Positions 5,768 to 39,076 of a stretch of 64,000 nucleotides of DNA are shown one piece after another. The stretch is from positions 1-64,000 of the forward strand of contig JADLFM010000223.1 of NCBI GenBank assembly GCA_020845495.1, written 5' to 3'. How positions within the stretch are numbered: position 1 is the stretch's first letter; every line of letters begins with the position of its first letter. The translations under genes were made by a program, and so were the position numbers. The notes under the pieces were generated by a model, which had not been told where the DNA came from, searched no databases, and saw nothing but the letters and a program-made list of their open reading frames with translations. The DNA comes from Chloroflexota bacterium. GTDB lineage: Bacteria; Chloroflexota; UBA6077; JACCZL01.

Positions 5768-6280
5768 TCACTCGGCTGCGACGGCCTCGTCAACCGAGGA
5801 GGCACGCTCCTCGCGACTCGATCGGCGCAGGTCGTCGAGTGAGTCGAGCCGGTCGACGTAAACCATGCCCTGCAAGTGGTCGATCTCGTGCTGAAGCGCC
5901 TGCCCGAACAAGCCTTCGCCAGTGAGGCGGATCTCCTTGCCCTTCAGGTCTTTCGCTTTGACGGTGACTCGCACGGCTCGCCGCACCTTCGCCCAGTAAC
6001 CGGGGACGGACAGACAGCCTTCGTCCAACAGGTGCTCGTCCTCGAGTTTGACGATCTCGGGGTTGATGAGTGTGTGGACCTCGCCCGGCTCCGTCTCCAC
6101 CACGGCCACCTGGAGCGGCACGCCGATCTGCGGAGCAGCCAGGCCGACGCCCGGCGCATCGCGCATCGTGTCGATCATGTCGTCCACCAGTCGTTGAATC
6201 GACTGGTCGATCTTCGACACCTTTCGCGCCTTCTTCCGGAGCACCGGATTGCCGAGCGCCACGATCGGTCGGACCGCCAT
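5768..6280 (-). CDS. def: Peptide deformylase
   Basis: Removes the N-formyl group from nascent proteins; a metal hydrolase. All three motifs are present in 170 aa: GVGLAAPQIG (44-53, catalytic Gln51), EGCLSVPG (87-94, metal ligand Cys89) and QHEIDHLQG (130-138, ligands His131 and His135, catalytic Glu132). I chose the ATG at 6280 because it follows the cobT stop by 17 bp and has GGAGG about 10 nt upstream. The longer open frame to 6406 would overlap cobT. The C-terminus is an acidic/Arg-rich tail after about residue 150. Confidence 0.96.
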   Translation of the reverse strand: MAVRPIVALGNPVLRKKARKVSKIDQSIQRLVDDMIDTMRDAPGVGLAAPQIGVPLQVAVVETEPGEVHTLINPEIVKLEDEHLLDEGCLSVPGYWAKVRRAVRVTVKAKDLKGKEIRLTGEGLFGQALQHEIDHLQGMVYVDRLDSLDDLRRSSREERASSVDEAVAAE

Positions 6281-15557: not shown

Positions 15558-16211
15558 CTACTTGGGTGGGCCTTCGCGCAGCACGGTAACCCGCCGAGAC
15601 TGGGTGCCGTAGCGGCGGGCCTCGGACGGATCGGGCAGCCAGATGTCGATCGCCGGACCTTTCAGGCCACCGCCGATATCCTCAGCCACGAACACTCCGT
15701 CGTACCCCTCGATCGAGAGGGACGAGCCCACGGAAATGAACTTTGGATCGACCGCGACGACACCGTAGCGGGTTCTCGTCCCCGACGCGGTTCGCGCGTT
15801 CACTGGTATCCCGTCCACGCCATCGCTGTAGGCCGTGACCTTCGCCACGAACGTTCGCTGTCCGTCGTCAGTGTCGTGGGTGCTAACCGTCGACACGAGG
15901 TACCGTCCGGGGCTCCAGCCGGTCGTCGAGCGGCCGGAACTGATCTGATACCAGTCATCACTGCCGTCGCTATCCGAGACCGGGCCGGCCACGATCTGCA
16001 AGATCGTTCCTTCGTTCAGCGTGGTCACGATCCGATGGCTCATGCCGGGGCCGGAGCGGACACGGAGCCCGCGCCCCTCAGTGCCGGTCACGACCGCCGA
16101 CTGTCCAACCTGAAGGTCGTCAGCGGACGCGGAGGCAACCGAAGCAAGCGGAGGAATGAGCCCGAGCGAGAGGACCAGTACGAGCAAGGCACGTCGCAAC
16201 AGTAACGTCAA
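15558..16211 (-). CDS. Secreted SH3-3D domain cell-wall protein
   Basis: Exported protein with a signal peptide (RRALLVLVLSLGLIPPLASVASASA). A bacterial SH3 domain follows (about 35-105: GRGLRVRSGPGMSHRIVTTL, GSDDWYQI, GWSPGRYL), then a C-terminal 3D domain named for its Asp residues: ASGTRTRYGVVAVDP, VFVAEDIGGGLKG, AIDIWLP. The 3D domain is the RpfB/YocH/MltA-type double-psi barrel tied to peptidoglycan cleavage. The start is uncertain: TTG 16211 directly precedes the signal peptide, with GGAG about 12 nt upstream. Expression is very probably controlled by the c-di-AMP riboswitch at 16472-16612. The final residues are LREGPPK. Confidence 0.83.
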   Translation of the reverse strand: MTLLLRRALLVLVLSLGLIPPLASVASASADDLQVGQSAVVTGTEGRGLRVRSGPGMSHRIVTTLNEGTILQIVAGPVSDSDGSDDWYQISSGRSTTGWSPGRYLVSTVSTHDTDDGQRTFVAKVTAYSDGVDGIPVNARTASGTRTRYGVVAVDPKFISVGSSLSIEGYDGVFVAEDIGGGLKGPAIDIWLPDPSEARRYGTQSRRVTVLREGPPK

Positions 16212-16471
16212 CGGAAGTGCATTCTCCGATTTCAGCAGAGTTTGGCCGAGGGCGGCGCAACGTGTGGCTCGTACACGATTGGCCCGTACACGATGAACTG
16301 CGAGACGGCAGGCGATCGGCCCGGATCTTCGCCAGGTTCGCACAACGTGCTGGCCGTCCCTGGGGGCACCGGGACTCGTGCCCAGTCGACCTGTCACGCG
16401 GACTGCCTCCTCTTCCCTGCTCCACCGCGCGCACGCCGACGTCGATCCGTCGCGCCGGCGCGTGATCGGCA

Positions 16472-16612
16472 GGGTCTGACCTACGGGGTTAGCTGACGGG
16501 TTCGGGCTGGAGCCTGCCCTACGGCACACCGGACTCGCAGACGCGAGGCAAGTCGCCGATTCACCCCATTCCTGGGTTCCCCGCTCCTCCCTCTCGGGAG
16601 GACTCGGCCGCA
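16472..16612 (-). ncRNA. c-di-AMP riboswitch (ydaO-yuaA class)
   Basis: Reading leftward, the region carries the conserved parts of this class in order: GGCCGAGTCC with the adjacent CTCCC/GGGAG stem, GGGGAACCCA, ATGGGGTGAATCGG, GTAGGG, CCCGAACCCGTCAGCT, then AACCCCGTAGGTC. GGCC and GGTC can close P1. Members of the class sense c-di-AMP and commonly control cell-wall hydrolases with SH3, 3D or NlpC domains, which fits the SH3-3D gene downstream. The 260 nt between its 3' end and the gene start include GC-rich palindromes around 16450-16465 that could form the expression platform. Confidence 0.9.
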
Positions 16613-16667
16613 CATGACGTCAAGGGGCGATCCTGATTGTCGCCCGAGTGCACCTGACGTCACGGCG

Positions 16668-35954: not shown

Positions 35955-36043
35955 GCCGCACGCCCCTGGCCGCTCATGCCGCACGCCCCTGACCGCTCAT
36001 GCCGCACGCCCCTGGCTGCTCATGCCGCGAGCCCCTTTGCGCG
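35952..36043 (-). repeat. Four 23-bp tandem repeats carrying overlapping start codons
   Basis: Four head-to-tail units of 23 bp (ATGs on the minus strand at 36023, 36000, 35977 and 35954), the copy nearest the upstream gene being degenerate. Each unit holds a purine-rich GGGGC ribosome site and an ATG. ATG 36023 overlaps the glycosyltransferase TGA. Each of the first three ATGs opens MSxQGRAA and then stops at a TGA overlapping the next ATG. The fourth ATG starts the WecA-FlaA1 fusion. Confidence 0.85.
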
Positions 36044-37195
36044 CGCCAGATCGAGGTACAGGCGCTCCACGTCGTCCACAAGCCGGCCGGCCGAGTGTCG
36101 AGGATAGACCGATGCCCGTCCGGCTGCGCCGAAGGCGGCCGCCTCGTCTGGGTTGCGTAACAGACGCAGGATGCCATCAGCGAGGGCACGCGGATCGTGG
36201 GGTGGGACCAGCAGGCCAGTCCGCTCGTCGTCGACCACGCCGGTAACGCCGCCGACGTTCGTGGAGACGACTGGCCGCGCCGCTGCCAGCGCCTCGATCA
36301 GCGCCACTGGCGAGCCCTCGTTGTTTGAGGAGAGCGCCACGACGTCCAGATCGGCGTACACCGCCGCCATATCCTTTCGCCAGCCGAGAAAGTCCGTCGC
36401 GCCGTCGATCCCGAGCGTACGCGTCAGCCCCTGGAGCTCCGCGCGCCGCTCGCCATCGCCGACCACCACGAACCGCGTGTTCGGCCGCTCGTTGCGTACG
36501 AGCGCCGCCGCCTCGAAGAAGACCTCGTGAGCCTTGATCGGGACGAGCCGAGCGACGATGCCGATCAGCCGCTCACTCTCTTGAACGTGCAGGTCGGCGC
36601 GCAGTTGCCCGCGCTGTGCCTCCGCTTCCAGCATCTCCTCGATCGGCAGCCCGAGCGGGATGACGTCGATCTTGTCGGCCGGCGCCACCCCATACGAGAC
36701 GATATCCTGTCGCTGGGCCGCCCCAACCGCGACGATCCGGTCGGTGAGCCGCGCCAGAGCGGTCTCGATGGTGATGAACACGCGCGTCTTGATCGGCCCA
36801 AAGTAACTGTGGAAGGTGTGTCCGTGGAACGTGTGTACTACGATCGGGACGCCTGCCAGGCGCGCGGCAAGCCGCCCGGCGGTGCCGGCCTTGGCCATAT
36901 GGGTGTGCACGATGTGAGGCCGAGTGGTACGGATCAGCCGGTACATGGCCAGCGTCGCACGCAGATCGTTGAGCGGGCTGACTTCACGCCCGAGCTCGCG
37001 AAGGATGCGCGGACGGACCCCGTGACGTTCTGCCAGTTCTCGCATCGATCCTTCAGTCGGACCTTCGAGGCCGGTGACGAGGACGGAAGCGAAGCGGTCG
37101 TTCTGTAGGCCGCGCGTGAGCAGGATCGCGTGGATCGCGGGGCCTCCGATATTCAGGCGGGTGATCGCCCGGAGGACCCTGAGCTGTTCCGGCAT
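36020..37195 (-). CDS. Glycosyltransferase family 4
   Basis: A GT-B retaining glycosyltransferase of 391 aa, likely extending the lipid-linked sugar made by the downstream transferase. The N-terminus has RLNIGGPAIHAILLTRGL, then HTHMAKAGTAGRLAARLAG and HTFHGHTFHSYFG. The C-terminal domain carries VARLVPIKAHEVFFEAA, VVVGDGERRAEL and LSSNNEGSPVALIEALAAARPVVSTNVGG, the donor EX7E region. I chose ATG 37195, preceded by GAGG; the frame is open to 37309 but that part is Arg-rich and untypical. It is first in the operon running to the VanZ pair. Confidence 0.92.
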   Translation of the reverse strand: MPEQLRVLRAITRLNIGGPAIHAILLTRGLQNDRFASVLVTGLEGPTEGSMRELAERHGVRPRILRELGREVSPLNDLRATLAMYRLIRTTRPHIVHTHMAKAGTAGRLAARLAGVPIVVHTFHGHTFHSYFGPIKTRVFITIETALARLTDRIVAVGAAQRQDIVSYGVAPADKIDVIPLGLPIEEMLEAEAQRGQLRADLHVQESERLIGIVARLVPIKAHEVFFEAAALVRNERPNTRFVVVGDGERRAELQGLTRTLGIDGATDFLGWRKDMAAVYADLDVVALSSNNEGSPVALIEALAAARPVVSTNVGGVTGVVDDERTGLLVPPHDPRALADGILRLLRNPDEAAAFGAAGRASVYPRHSAGRLVDDVERLYLDLARAKGLAA

Positions 37196-37282
37196 AGTGC
37201 CTCGACGAGTGCAGATGCGTCGGGACGACCTCACCACGGCATCTGAGCCACGGCAAGTCCGGCAGGGCCGACGCGCCAGCAG

Positions 37283-37311
37283 AGTATATCGACGGCGTCG
37301 TCGTACCACAA
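37283..37311 (-). promoter_or_regulatory. Promoter of the polysaccharide operon
   Basis: Reading leftward: -35 TTGTGG (37311-37306), 17-bp spacer, -10 TATACT (37288-37283), start near 37276, leaving an 80-nt leader before the GT4 gene. The -35 is weak and the -10 good. Confidence 0.5.
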
Positions 37312-37366: not shown

Positions 37367-37642
37367 CTACCCGCCCGTCGGCCGGTCGGCTCGCCTGAGC
37401 AGCGACTGAACCATGCCGGCGCGAATCGCCATCGTCCAGGTGAGGGTGGCCTCGATCTCGGCTTCGCTACAGCCGGCTTTCCTCGCACCCGCGAGGCGGC
37501 GCTCCGTTCAAGGCTGACAGTTGCCGGTCAGCACGACGGCCAACCCGATCAGCGCCTTGGTCTTTGGGTCCAGCGCGTCGTTGTCGCGGCTACCGGCGTA
37601 GAACTGCTCGAACTGGTCCAGGAGATCGGAACGGTCGGTCAC
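37367..37642 (-). CDS. Candidate selenoprotein, AhpD/CMD-like, with in-frame TGA at the CxxC position
   Basis: Small carboxymuconolactone-decarboxylase/AhpD-fold protein. From GTG 37642 (GGAGG 7 nt upstream) 44 codons run MTDRSDLLDQFEQFYAGSRD... to GLAVVLTGNCQP, then TGA at 37510-37508. The same frame continues TERRLAGARKAGCSEAEIEA... to TAG at 37369-37367. That second half is family-like (A-x3-AGxxxxEIE). The TGA lies exactly where the second Cys of CxxC belongs, so full reading gives a CQPU motif and 91 aa. A bSECIS-like hairpin follows directly. The usual His four residues after the second Cys is Arg. Without Sec insertion this would be a point-nonsense pseudogene. No sel genes are in the window. 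A TATACT box at 37877-37872 may be its promoter element. Confidence 0.65.
37472..37500 (-). promoter_or_regulatory. Bacterial SECIS-like hairpin
   Basis: In the mRNA, a 6-bp stem CCUCGC/GCGAGG closes a GGGU apical loop, extended by a lower GCCG/CGGC stem with a 3' AAAGC bulge. Exactly 17 nt separate the UGA from the loop, and a G occupies the first loop positions. Both features match bacterial SECIS rules (the E. coli fdhF distance is similar). Confidence 0.6.
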
Positions 37643-37908
37643 GCACAGCCCTCCATGCTTCCAGTAGGGTGTCAAAGCGGGCGAGGTGCCACAGCGAGTC
37701 TCCTGGCGTGCGGGCGCGGGGATCTGATCGCCGGCGCAGCGAACGCGTCGGCGGGCGAGTCCACTGGCGCGCGGGGGCGGGGCCTGTCCTTGCCCTGAGA
37801 TCCCAGCCGGAGCTCGCGTTGAGCGTCTGAGGCGAGCGCCGCCGGCCGCCCAGCGGTAACGGCGCCTGCCCAGTATAGCGTGCTCTGCCGCGGACGGTTG
37901 ACCTCGTT

Positions 37909-38823
37909 TCAGCGGAAGATAGGCTGGGTCCACAACTGGCGTCCGTCCGAGGCGCTCGCTCTGACGCGCGCATATGCCCCCACGGCGTCGGTCAGGGTGA
38001 AGTGGGCCGAGTCTCCCTCGATCGCGTCGAGCACATGCCCTCCTGGCCCAATCAGTTCGATGTGGGCCGGTCCGGTCGCAAGCTCCAGCCGGACCTCGCG
38101 CGGGGTGCCGCTGTAGGCCGACAGTTCCAACCCGCTTGAGCCATAGAAGCGCCCCTGGCGCAAGGCGTCGAGGCAGTCACTGAGCCGCTCGGAGTCGGCT
38201 TCGACCTGGAGCCAGCCTCGACCGGGGTTGGCCCAGTCGTCTCCCCAGCGGGTGAAGTGGTGGGCATCGTCGGAGGCCACGCCCCAGGTGCGCCGCCCGG
38301 CGGTCAGCATGGCATCCCAGATCGCCTCGGTTGATAGGTGGGTGTCGTCGCCGGGATTCGCGACGAGGTTGTGACCGTTGGCGACCTCGATCATCTCGAT
38401 GTCGCCGGCTTCCATCAGCACGTCGATGCCGAGGGCCCACAGGTAGTTCGGATGGTTGACGTGCGCGACGCCCTCCTGCGCGTGAATGCGATCGATCGCC
38501 CAGCGCACCCGCTCGGCGCGGCTCTCCGTGACAGTGTGCTCCTGGTTGCTCTTACCGGGCTGGCTGGGGCTGATCAGTTGGCGGAGGCCCAGGCCATTAA
38601 CGTGGACGGCCGCCATCGTCACTTCCTCGCCTTGCCAGACGGCCAGTTTGCCGCGCTGAAGACGGGCGAGGTGGTCCTCGGGGATCAGAATGTTGTGATC
38701 GGTCAAGAAGAGGAAGTCGTAGCCGTGCTCGGCGTACCAGTCGACGACGACTTCAGGCGGGCTGTCGCCGTCACTATAGGAGGTGTGGGTGTGGGTGTTC
38801 CCTTTGTACCAACGCTGAGGCAT
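37909..38823 (-). CDS. PHP-domain metal-dependent phosphoesterase
   Basis: A 304-aa PHP-superfamily hydrolase. Metal-ligand motifs are visible in order: NTHTHTSYSDGDSPPE (near residue 9), FLFLTDHN, GEEVT, HVNHPNY, IEVANGHN and GVASDDAHHF. The C-terminal 80 residues form a beta domain (LRQGRFYGSSGLELSAYS..., VRLELATGPAHIELIG) often appended to PHP proteins annotated with CehA/McbA-like function. ATG 38823 is used; the frame is open to 38898. The phosphoester substrate is unknown. The candidate selenoprotein lies 267 bp downstream on the same strand. Confidence 0.88.
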   Translation of the reverse strand: MPQRWYKGNTHTHTSYSDGDSPPEVVVDWYAEHGYDFLFLTDHNILIPEDHLARLQRGKLAVWQGEEVTMAAVHVNGLGLRQLISPSQPGKSNQEHTVTESRAERVRWAIDRIHAQEGVAHVNHPNYLWALGIDVLMEAGDIEMIEVANGHNLVANPGDDTHLSTEAIWDAMLTAGRRTWGVASDDAHHFTRWGDDWANPGRGWLQVEADSERLSDCLDALRQGRFYGSSGLELSAYSGTPREVRLELATGPAHIELIGPGGHVLDAIEGDSAHFTLTDAVGAYARVRASASDGRQLWTQPIFR

Positions 38824-39076
38824 CGCTCGATCCCGCGACCGAAGTCGGCGCCACGGCCGGGTAGACGCCGCGAGGTGAGCGTACCCGAAGCACGCCATGC
38901 GTGTCCGTTCGTGGCCGTTCGAGACCGCGCCCGACGCCTGAACTCCAGCCCCGGCAGGGTCGACCGGGCCGCACGCCGAGCGTACGTAGGTTTCACGTTG
39001 AACGTAGTTGAATCGGGGCGCGCAGTGGTCGGCGAGGGACGGCTCTGGCGCCGGCTCTGAGGTCGTCCGTCGTCGC

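Follow-up and report, generated by a model that had tools for sequence, protein, structure and literature searches.

A 91-residue protein encoded on the minus strand of the 64,000-nucleotide stretch of DNA analysed here (hereafter, the window) is very probably a selenoprotein, its gene containing an in-frame UGA (37510-37508) that would be read as selenocysteine (Sec) and would not mark a pseudogene. By sequence comparison, the protein belongs to a new, distinct Chloroflexota subfamily within the known AhpD-like CxxU selenoproteins. The gene and its signals are the following:

37367-37642, minus strand: predicted AhpD/CMD-fold selenoprotein gene, GTG to TAG, 91 residues, Sec at residue 45
37649-37654, minus strand: Shine-Dalgarno-like sequence GGAGGG
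37508-37510, minus strand: in-frame UGA, residue 45, at the second position of the CxxC motif; TGA in the orthologues L001 and L002, TGC in the orthologue L015 (see below)

The GTG start codon (37642-37640, minus strand) is preceded by GGAGG (37654-37650), which ends 7 nt ahead of it, the distance given in an earlier note on this DNA. The N-terminal 44 codons, with the peptide ending in LTGNCQP, lead up to the TGA at 37510-37508, and 3' of the TGA the same frame resumes as TERRLAGARKAGCSEAEIEATLTWTMAIRAGMVQSLLRRADRPTGG, continuing for 46 codons up to the TAG at 37369-37367. The interrupted frame that the earlier note described without naming a strand is thus present, on the minus strand; the 141-aa product expected there from conventional annotation also has a counterpart, a frame at 37508-37933. 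In the read-through protein, NCQPU stands where CxxC would be. The Pfam CMD profile (PF02627) gives this protein 52.5 bits, well over its cut-off (23), and the match spans residues 6-75, that is, both sides of the TGA.

Truncated and cysteine-bearing relatives

The search with the read-through protein as the query yielded two full-length relatives with Cys and three proteins ending at CQP. When the N-terminal 44 residues were used as the query, 62 short proteins were retrieved, including the window's own (P0016), and all 62 stop directly after NCxx (61 at NCxP and one at NCET); these relatives are known as protein entries alone, so their stop codon is deduced from the end point, not from DNA. 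The length filter of this query shuts out proteins over about 77 residues but imposes no shared end point on the rest, and because longer proteins are excluded, this search cannot count the Cys forms. The three protein searches pooled gave 75 proteins (P0002-P0076), among which 66 end in NCxP, five contain NCxPC, and four have other ends (P0012, P0014, P0015, and P0065, the last with NCET). Four of the NCxPC proteins belong to the subfamily (P0002, P0003, P0007, and P0008), and P0013 is more distant. The source name of P0068 is that of a Chloroflexota MAG.

The TGA codon itself was read in DNA for three subfamily genes only, namely, that of the window and those of two Chloroflexota MAGs, L001 (JACCZL010000530.1) and L002 (JAUJPG010000001.1). 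Both were found in a contig search with an N-terminal alignment, A5, which comprises 37 of the 67 rows of alignment A4, the long, chimeric or similar rows having been left out by hand. In both, TGA occupies the same codon, the frame continues, and the proteins are 82% identical when read through. The A5 search also gave two short matches, L003 from Rhodobacter (E 3e-4) and L004 from Streptococcus (E 6e-4). No relative was found in the contig search with the full-length alignment A2 or in a scan of viral contigs, and a search of 61 genomes together with the 29-genome class that includes G002 detected subfamily members in G001, G002, and G003 only.

The G003 member (L015) is a syntenic orthologue, 68% identical, with TGC (Cys) at the Sec codon. 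The TGA accordingly falls on the second Cys of the AhpD CxxC motif, where the earlier note had placed it. Aligned homologues have either Cys (L015) or TGA (L001 and L002) at this position, and two of the three findings that the earlier note named as capable of overturning the reading, relatives devoid of the frame and unrelated stops in homologues, did not emerge: L001, L002, and L015 all retain the frame past this position, which is taken in the relatives by either a stop or TGC.

Compared with the window gene, the downstream codons 46-84 (39 codons) show 4/5/11 substitutions at codon positions 1/2/3 in L001 and 2/1/16 in L002, and the upstream 44 codons show 8/8/21 and 8/7/22, respectively. 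Amino-acid-changing codons number 5 of 39 downstream versus 10 of 44 upstream in the comparison with L001, and 1 of 39 versus 13 of 44 in that with L002. By this measure, coding conservation extends beyond the TGA, with purifying selection evident downstream as it is upstream. R48 and R49 are invariant in all seven subfamily rows, four of which have Cys, and so is WTMAIRAGMVQSL (residues 69-81). The Arg found instead of His after CxxU, which had been taken as a warning sign, is therefore a fixed trait of the subfamily (7 of 7 rows) and not decay.

These comparisons bear on three other explanations. The window alone would permit a nonsense pseudogene, with the TGA as an ordinary inactivating mutation and the downstream part untranslated, and in G001, whose gene shares the TGA, no Sec machinery exceeds the cut-off; however, the fact that all 62 short relatives end at the same place, the recurrence of the TGA in two genomes, the third-position-weighted change after the stop, and the invariance of the downstream segment across all rows make such decay highly improbable. 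Nor is it at all plausible that the truncated 44-residue peptide is what functions and that readthrough is minor or regulatory: ordinary termination would yield this peptide, and its codons are also under purifying selection, but codons with amino-acid changes are not more frequent after the stop than before it, and the Cys orthologue L015 has the full frame. Reassignment of TGA in the lineage, for example to Trp, without any Sec, would also fit a frame open through the TGA but can practically be dismissed, given that homologues have Cys rather than Trp at this residue, that TGA seems to end ordinary genes (the peptide deformylase gene of the window, at 5770-5768, and the L002 gene itself), and that most genomes of the class have tRNA-Sec (23 of 29). 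Sec insertion at the UGA itself is very likely, judging from the common TGA, the coding sequence downstream, the Cys orthologue, and the machinery of G002 described below.

The hairpin and the selenocysteine machinery

Downstream of the UGA lies a candidate recoding signal:

37481-37496, minus strand: bSECIS-like hairpin CCUCGC-GGGU-GCGAGG, apical loop at 37490-37487

The hairpin consists of 6 Watson-Crick pairs, with a UGA-to-loop spacing of 17 nt, and the folding energy of the 43 nt from the UGA is -16.2 kcal/mol. The published bSECIS model specifies a loop of 3-9 nt with G in its first two positions, a stem of 4-16 bp, a spacing of 16-37 nt, and an MFE <= -7.5 (PMC13188914). The window hairpin fits this model, and the earlier description of this element, with its loop 17 nt after the UGA, holds.

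As evidence for a selenoprotein by itself, the hairpin is weak, because comparable stems follow 71 of the 1590 TGA trinucleotides counted over the two strands of the window (4.5%; UGA 37510-37508 included) and its energy is ordinary. To count as comparable, a stem needed at least 6 Watson-Crick bp, a loop of 3-9 nt with G in its first two positions, and a spacing of 16-37 nt; at 17-18 nt spacing, 4 of the 1590 TGAs have such a stem, and with G-U pairs allowed, 322 of 1590 qualify. Among synonymous recodings of the downstream peptide, a qualifying stem appeared in 1162 of 20000 at 16-37 nt and in 291 of 20000 at 17-18 nt, and folding energies equally low were reached by 961 of 2000. Chance could account for the hairpin but does not explain the common stop position in the relatives, and the case therefore rests on the comparison. 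Another frame with an internal TGA, at 5768-5770 on the minus strand of the window, was rejected as a recoding candidate: the peptide deformylase gene and a family 5 solute-binding protein gene abut there in one frame.

The subfamily profile was also run against 400 genomes sampled from the phylum, with no more than 13 candidates per genome scored, and 58 of these genomes had a match. Internal stops occur in five of the 64 match rows listed, each of them a single TGA; one of the five comes from G197, and two more are L036 and L016. A divergent AhpD-like gene in G100 (L036:1462-1782) encodes CEPU, keeps the His at +4, and has the hairpin CUUCGC-AGGU-GCGAAG; another AhpD-like gene, in G024 (L016:1419-1739), encodes CEAUTYHH, with the His kept and a 7-bp hairpin. 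L036 and L016 each have a stem-loop 17-18 nt after the TGA. G024 has tRNA-Sec, SelA, and SelD. In the 110-genome class around G100, matches at E <= 1e-7 were detected in G100 and G054 only.

L001, L002, and L036, the last of them more distant, have a hairpin at the codons that form it in the window; that of L036 differs from the window hairpin by one compensatory pair. No significant covariation was seen among these four sequences (146 of 500 shuffles); L016 was omitted from this count because its hairpin pairs one base out of register. The six hairpin codons show no changes relative to L001 and one relative to L002, in the loop. Compared with the Cys orthologue L015, there are seven base changes in these codons, four of them at third positions, and a 6-bp hairpin was not found at the corresponding site of L015.

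That the genome of the window also encodes Sec machinery is inferred from relatives; the window itself has no match to the SelA, SelB or SelD pieces of G002. In G002, which holds the syntenic TGA orthologue L002, all four components are over the cut-off: SelA (547.1 bits), SelB (331.8 bits, with a match that covers only positions 2-357 of the 581-position model), SelD (393.9 bits, itself with an early TGA), and tRNA-Sec (69.6 bits, anticodon TCA). In G001, which holds the other TGA orthologue, L001, none of tRNA-Sec, SelA, SelB, and SelD is over the cut-off; this MAG is fragmented, and because its contigs examined here are 3-11 kb, loss and incompleteness are indistinguishable. tRNA-Sec is over the cut-off in 23 of the 29 genomes of the G002 class, including G003 and G024, and also in G100 and G197, at a threshold at which 3 of 14 named control genomes are positive as well. 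The SelD genes of G002, G024, and G003 (L029, L030, and L031) have an in-frame TGA near the N-terminus (GAGU), so that SelD in these genomes looks like a selenoprotein itself. G003 retains SelA, SelD, and tRNA-Sec despite the Cys in its AhpD-like orthologue.

Gene neighbourhood, fold and predicted function

The genes flanking the candidate selenoprotein gene are the following:

36020-37309, minus strand: group 1 glycosyltransferase (Pfam PF00534, PF13439), downstream neighbour, syntenic with L001, L002, and L015
34101-35984, minus strand: glycosyl transferase (Pfam PF00953) with a CoA-binding domain, second downstream syntenic neighbour
37909-38898, minus strand: PHP-domain-like protein, upstream neighbour (Pfam 23.0 bits, below the cut-off of 26.4)

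The first downstream glycosyltransferase is syntenic in the window and in L001, L002, and L015, at 68-75% identity. The second is about 72% identical in L001 and L002, and the L015 stretch ends before it. A homologue of the PHP-like gene lies upstream in L002 and L015, and no match to it was found in the 836 bases upstream in L001. Such synteny, together with the sequence identity, suggests that the window itself derives from Chloroflexota. Elsewhere in the window, a c-di-AMP riboswitch (RF00379, 73.9 bits; 16463-16619, minus strand) overlaps the start of a 351-aa frame (15558-16613) that, by eye, encodes a putative secreted cell-wall protein.

The AlphaFold model of the protein (pLDDT 90.3), built from a 28-row alignment in which many rows are N-terminal only, contains four helices, with residues 42-45 opening the third. 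The best Foldseek matches in the PDB are RclX (7y4r), which is matched by sequence also, and 3bey, with TM scores (by query) of about 0.70-0.74; the match to Mycobacterium tuberculosis AhpD (1gu9) is weak (E 3.3). The model shows a single-domain, all-helical AhpD/CMD-like fold.

In AhpD, the second Cys of CxxC attacks the peroxide, and a relay His lies four residues further on. The position of this His is occupied by Arg49 in the window protein and by Arg in the Cys orthologues as well. We propose that the hairpin 17 nt downstream directs SelB with Sec-tRNA to insert selenocysteine at UGA 37510-37508, which would place a CQPU redox pair in the AhpD active-site helix. Sec would take the role of the second Cys of AhpD, with Arg49 in place of the relay His; the selenol would attack a peroxide or disulfide, and Cys42 would resolve the product. 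Such an arrangement suggests a selenol-thiol oxidoreductase, most likely a peroxidase. A thiol peroxidase or disulfide-reductase reaction of this kind appears reasonably probable, judging by the AhpD fold together with the CxxU motif, with the peroxidase activity uncertain because Arg replaces the relay His. It seems unlikely, if conceivable, that the Arg-bearing Chloroflexota subfamily, located beside putative surface-polymer glycosyltransferases, catalyses a redox reaction that is not alkyl hydroperoxide reduction, such as one in which an Arg-activated selenol reduces a specific disulfide or a specific oxidant at that locus.

Dozens of subfamily entries are stored in databases as stubs of 43-87 residues, lacking the catalytic residue along with the C-terminal half of the protein, and recognition of the Sec codon restores the whole family. 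This would add one selenoprotein for a phylum with three listed in the accessible part of the 2006 survey (PMC1794560). The syntenic Sec and Cys orthologues provide a handle on what Sec buys.

Comparison with known systems

AhpD-like selenoproteins are, as the earlier note stated, a known prokaryotic class. In the available parts of the respective sources, AhpD- or CMD-like CxxU families are listed since 2005-2008 (PMC1088965, PMC1794560, PMC2398784) and again in a 2026 review (PMC13188914). As described in the portions of these papers at hand, AhpD-like 2 (pfam02627, PMC2398784) and the CMD domain-containing protein (PMC1088965) share the Pfam domain and the CxxU placement with the window protein, which differs by the Arg-Arg after the motif; the likeness is one of descriptions. 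No description of the present subfamily was found in the accessible portions of the literature consulted, PMC1242214 included. The accessible part of another source lists COG0599 YurZ with CxxU (PMC9312934), and JGI gives the YurZ family name to eight of the truncated relatives.

The window protein, L001, L002, L015, and P0002 all score below the cut-off of every NCBIfam model. The distant AhpD homolog family GSU3128 (NF041047) likewise consists of small proteins with CxxU or CxxC, and the window protein scores 31.5 bits against its cut-off of 110; for the AhpD core domain (TIGR00778), the score is 20.6 bits against 27.8. The best NCBIfam scores, again below the cut-offs, are to the C-terminal part of the models for MduS (NF045649; 54.6 bits against 380) and ArsM_AhpD_UU (NF041537; 51.5 against 510), which are methyltransferase fusions by name, whereas the domain of the window protein stands alone. 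The predicted fold is common to the window protein, RclX (7y4r), and M. tuberculosis AhpD (1gu9), but where AhpD has Cys and a relay His, the window protein would have Sec and Arg.
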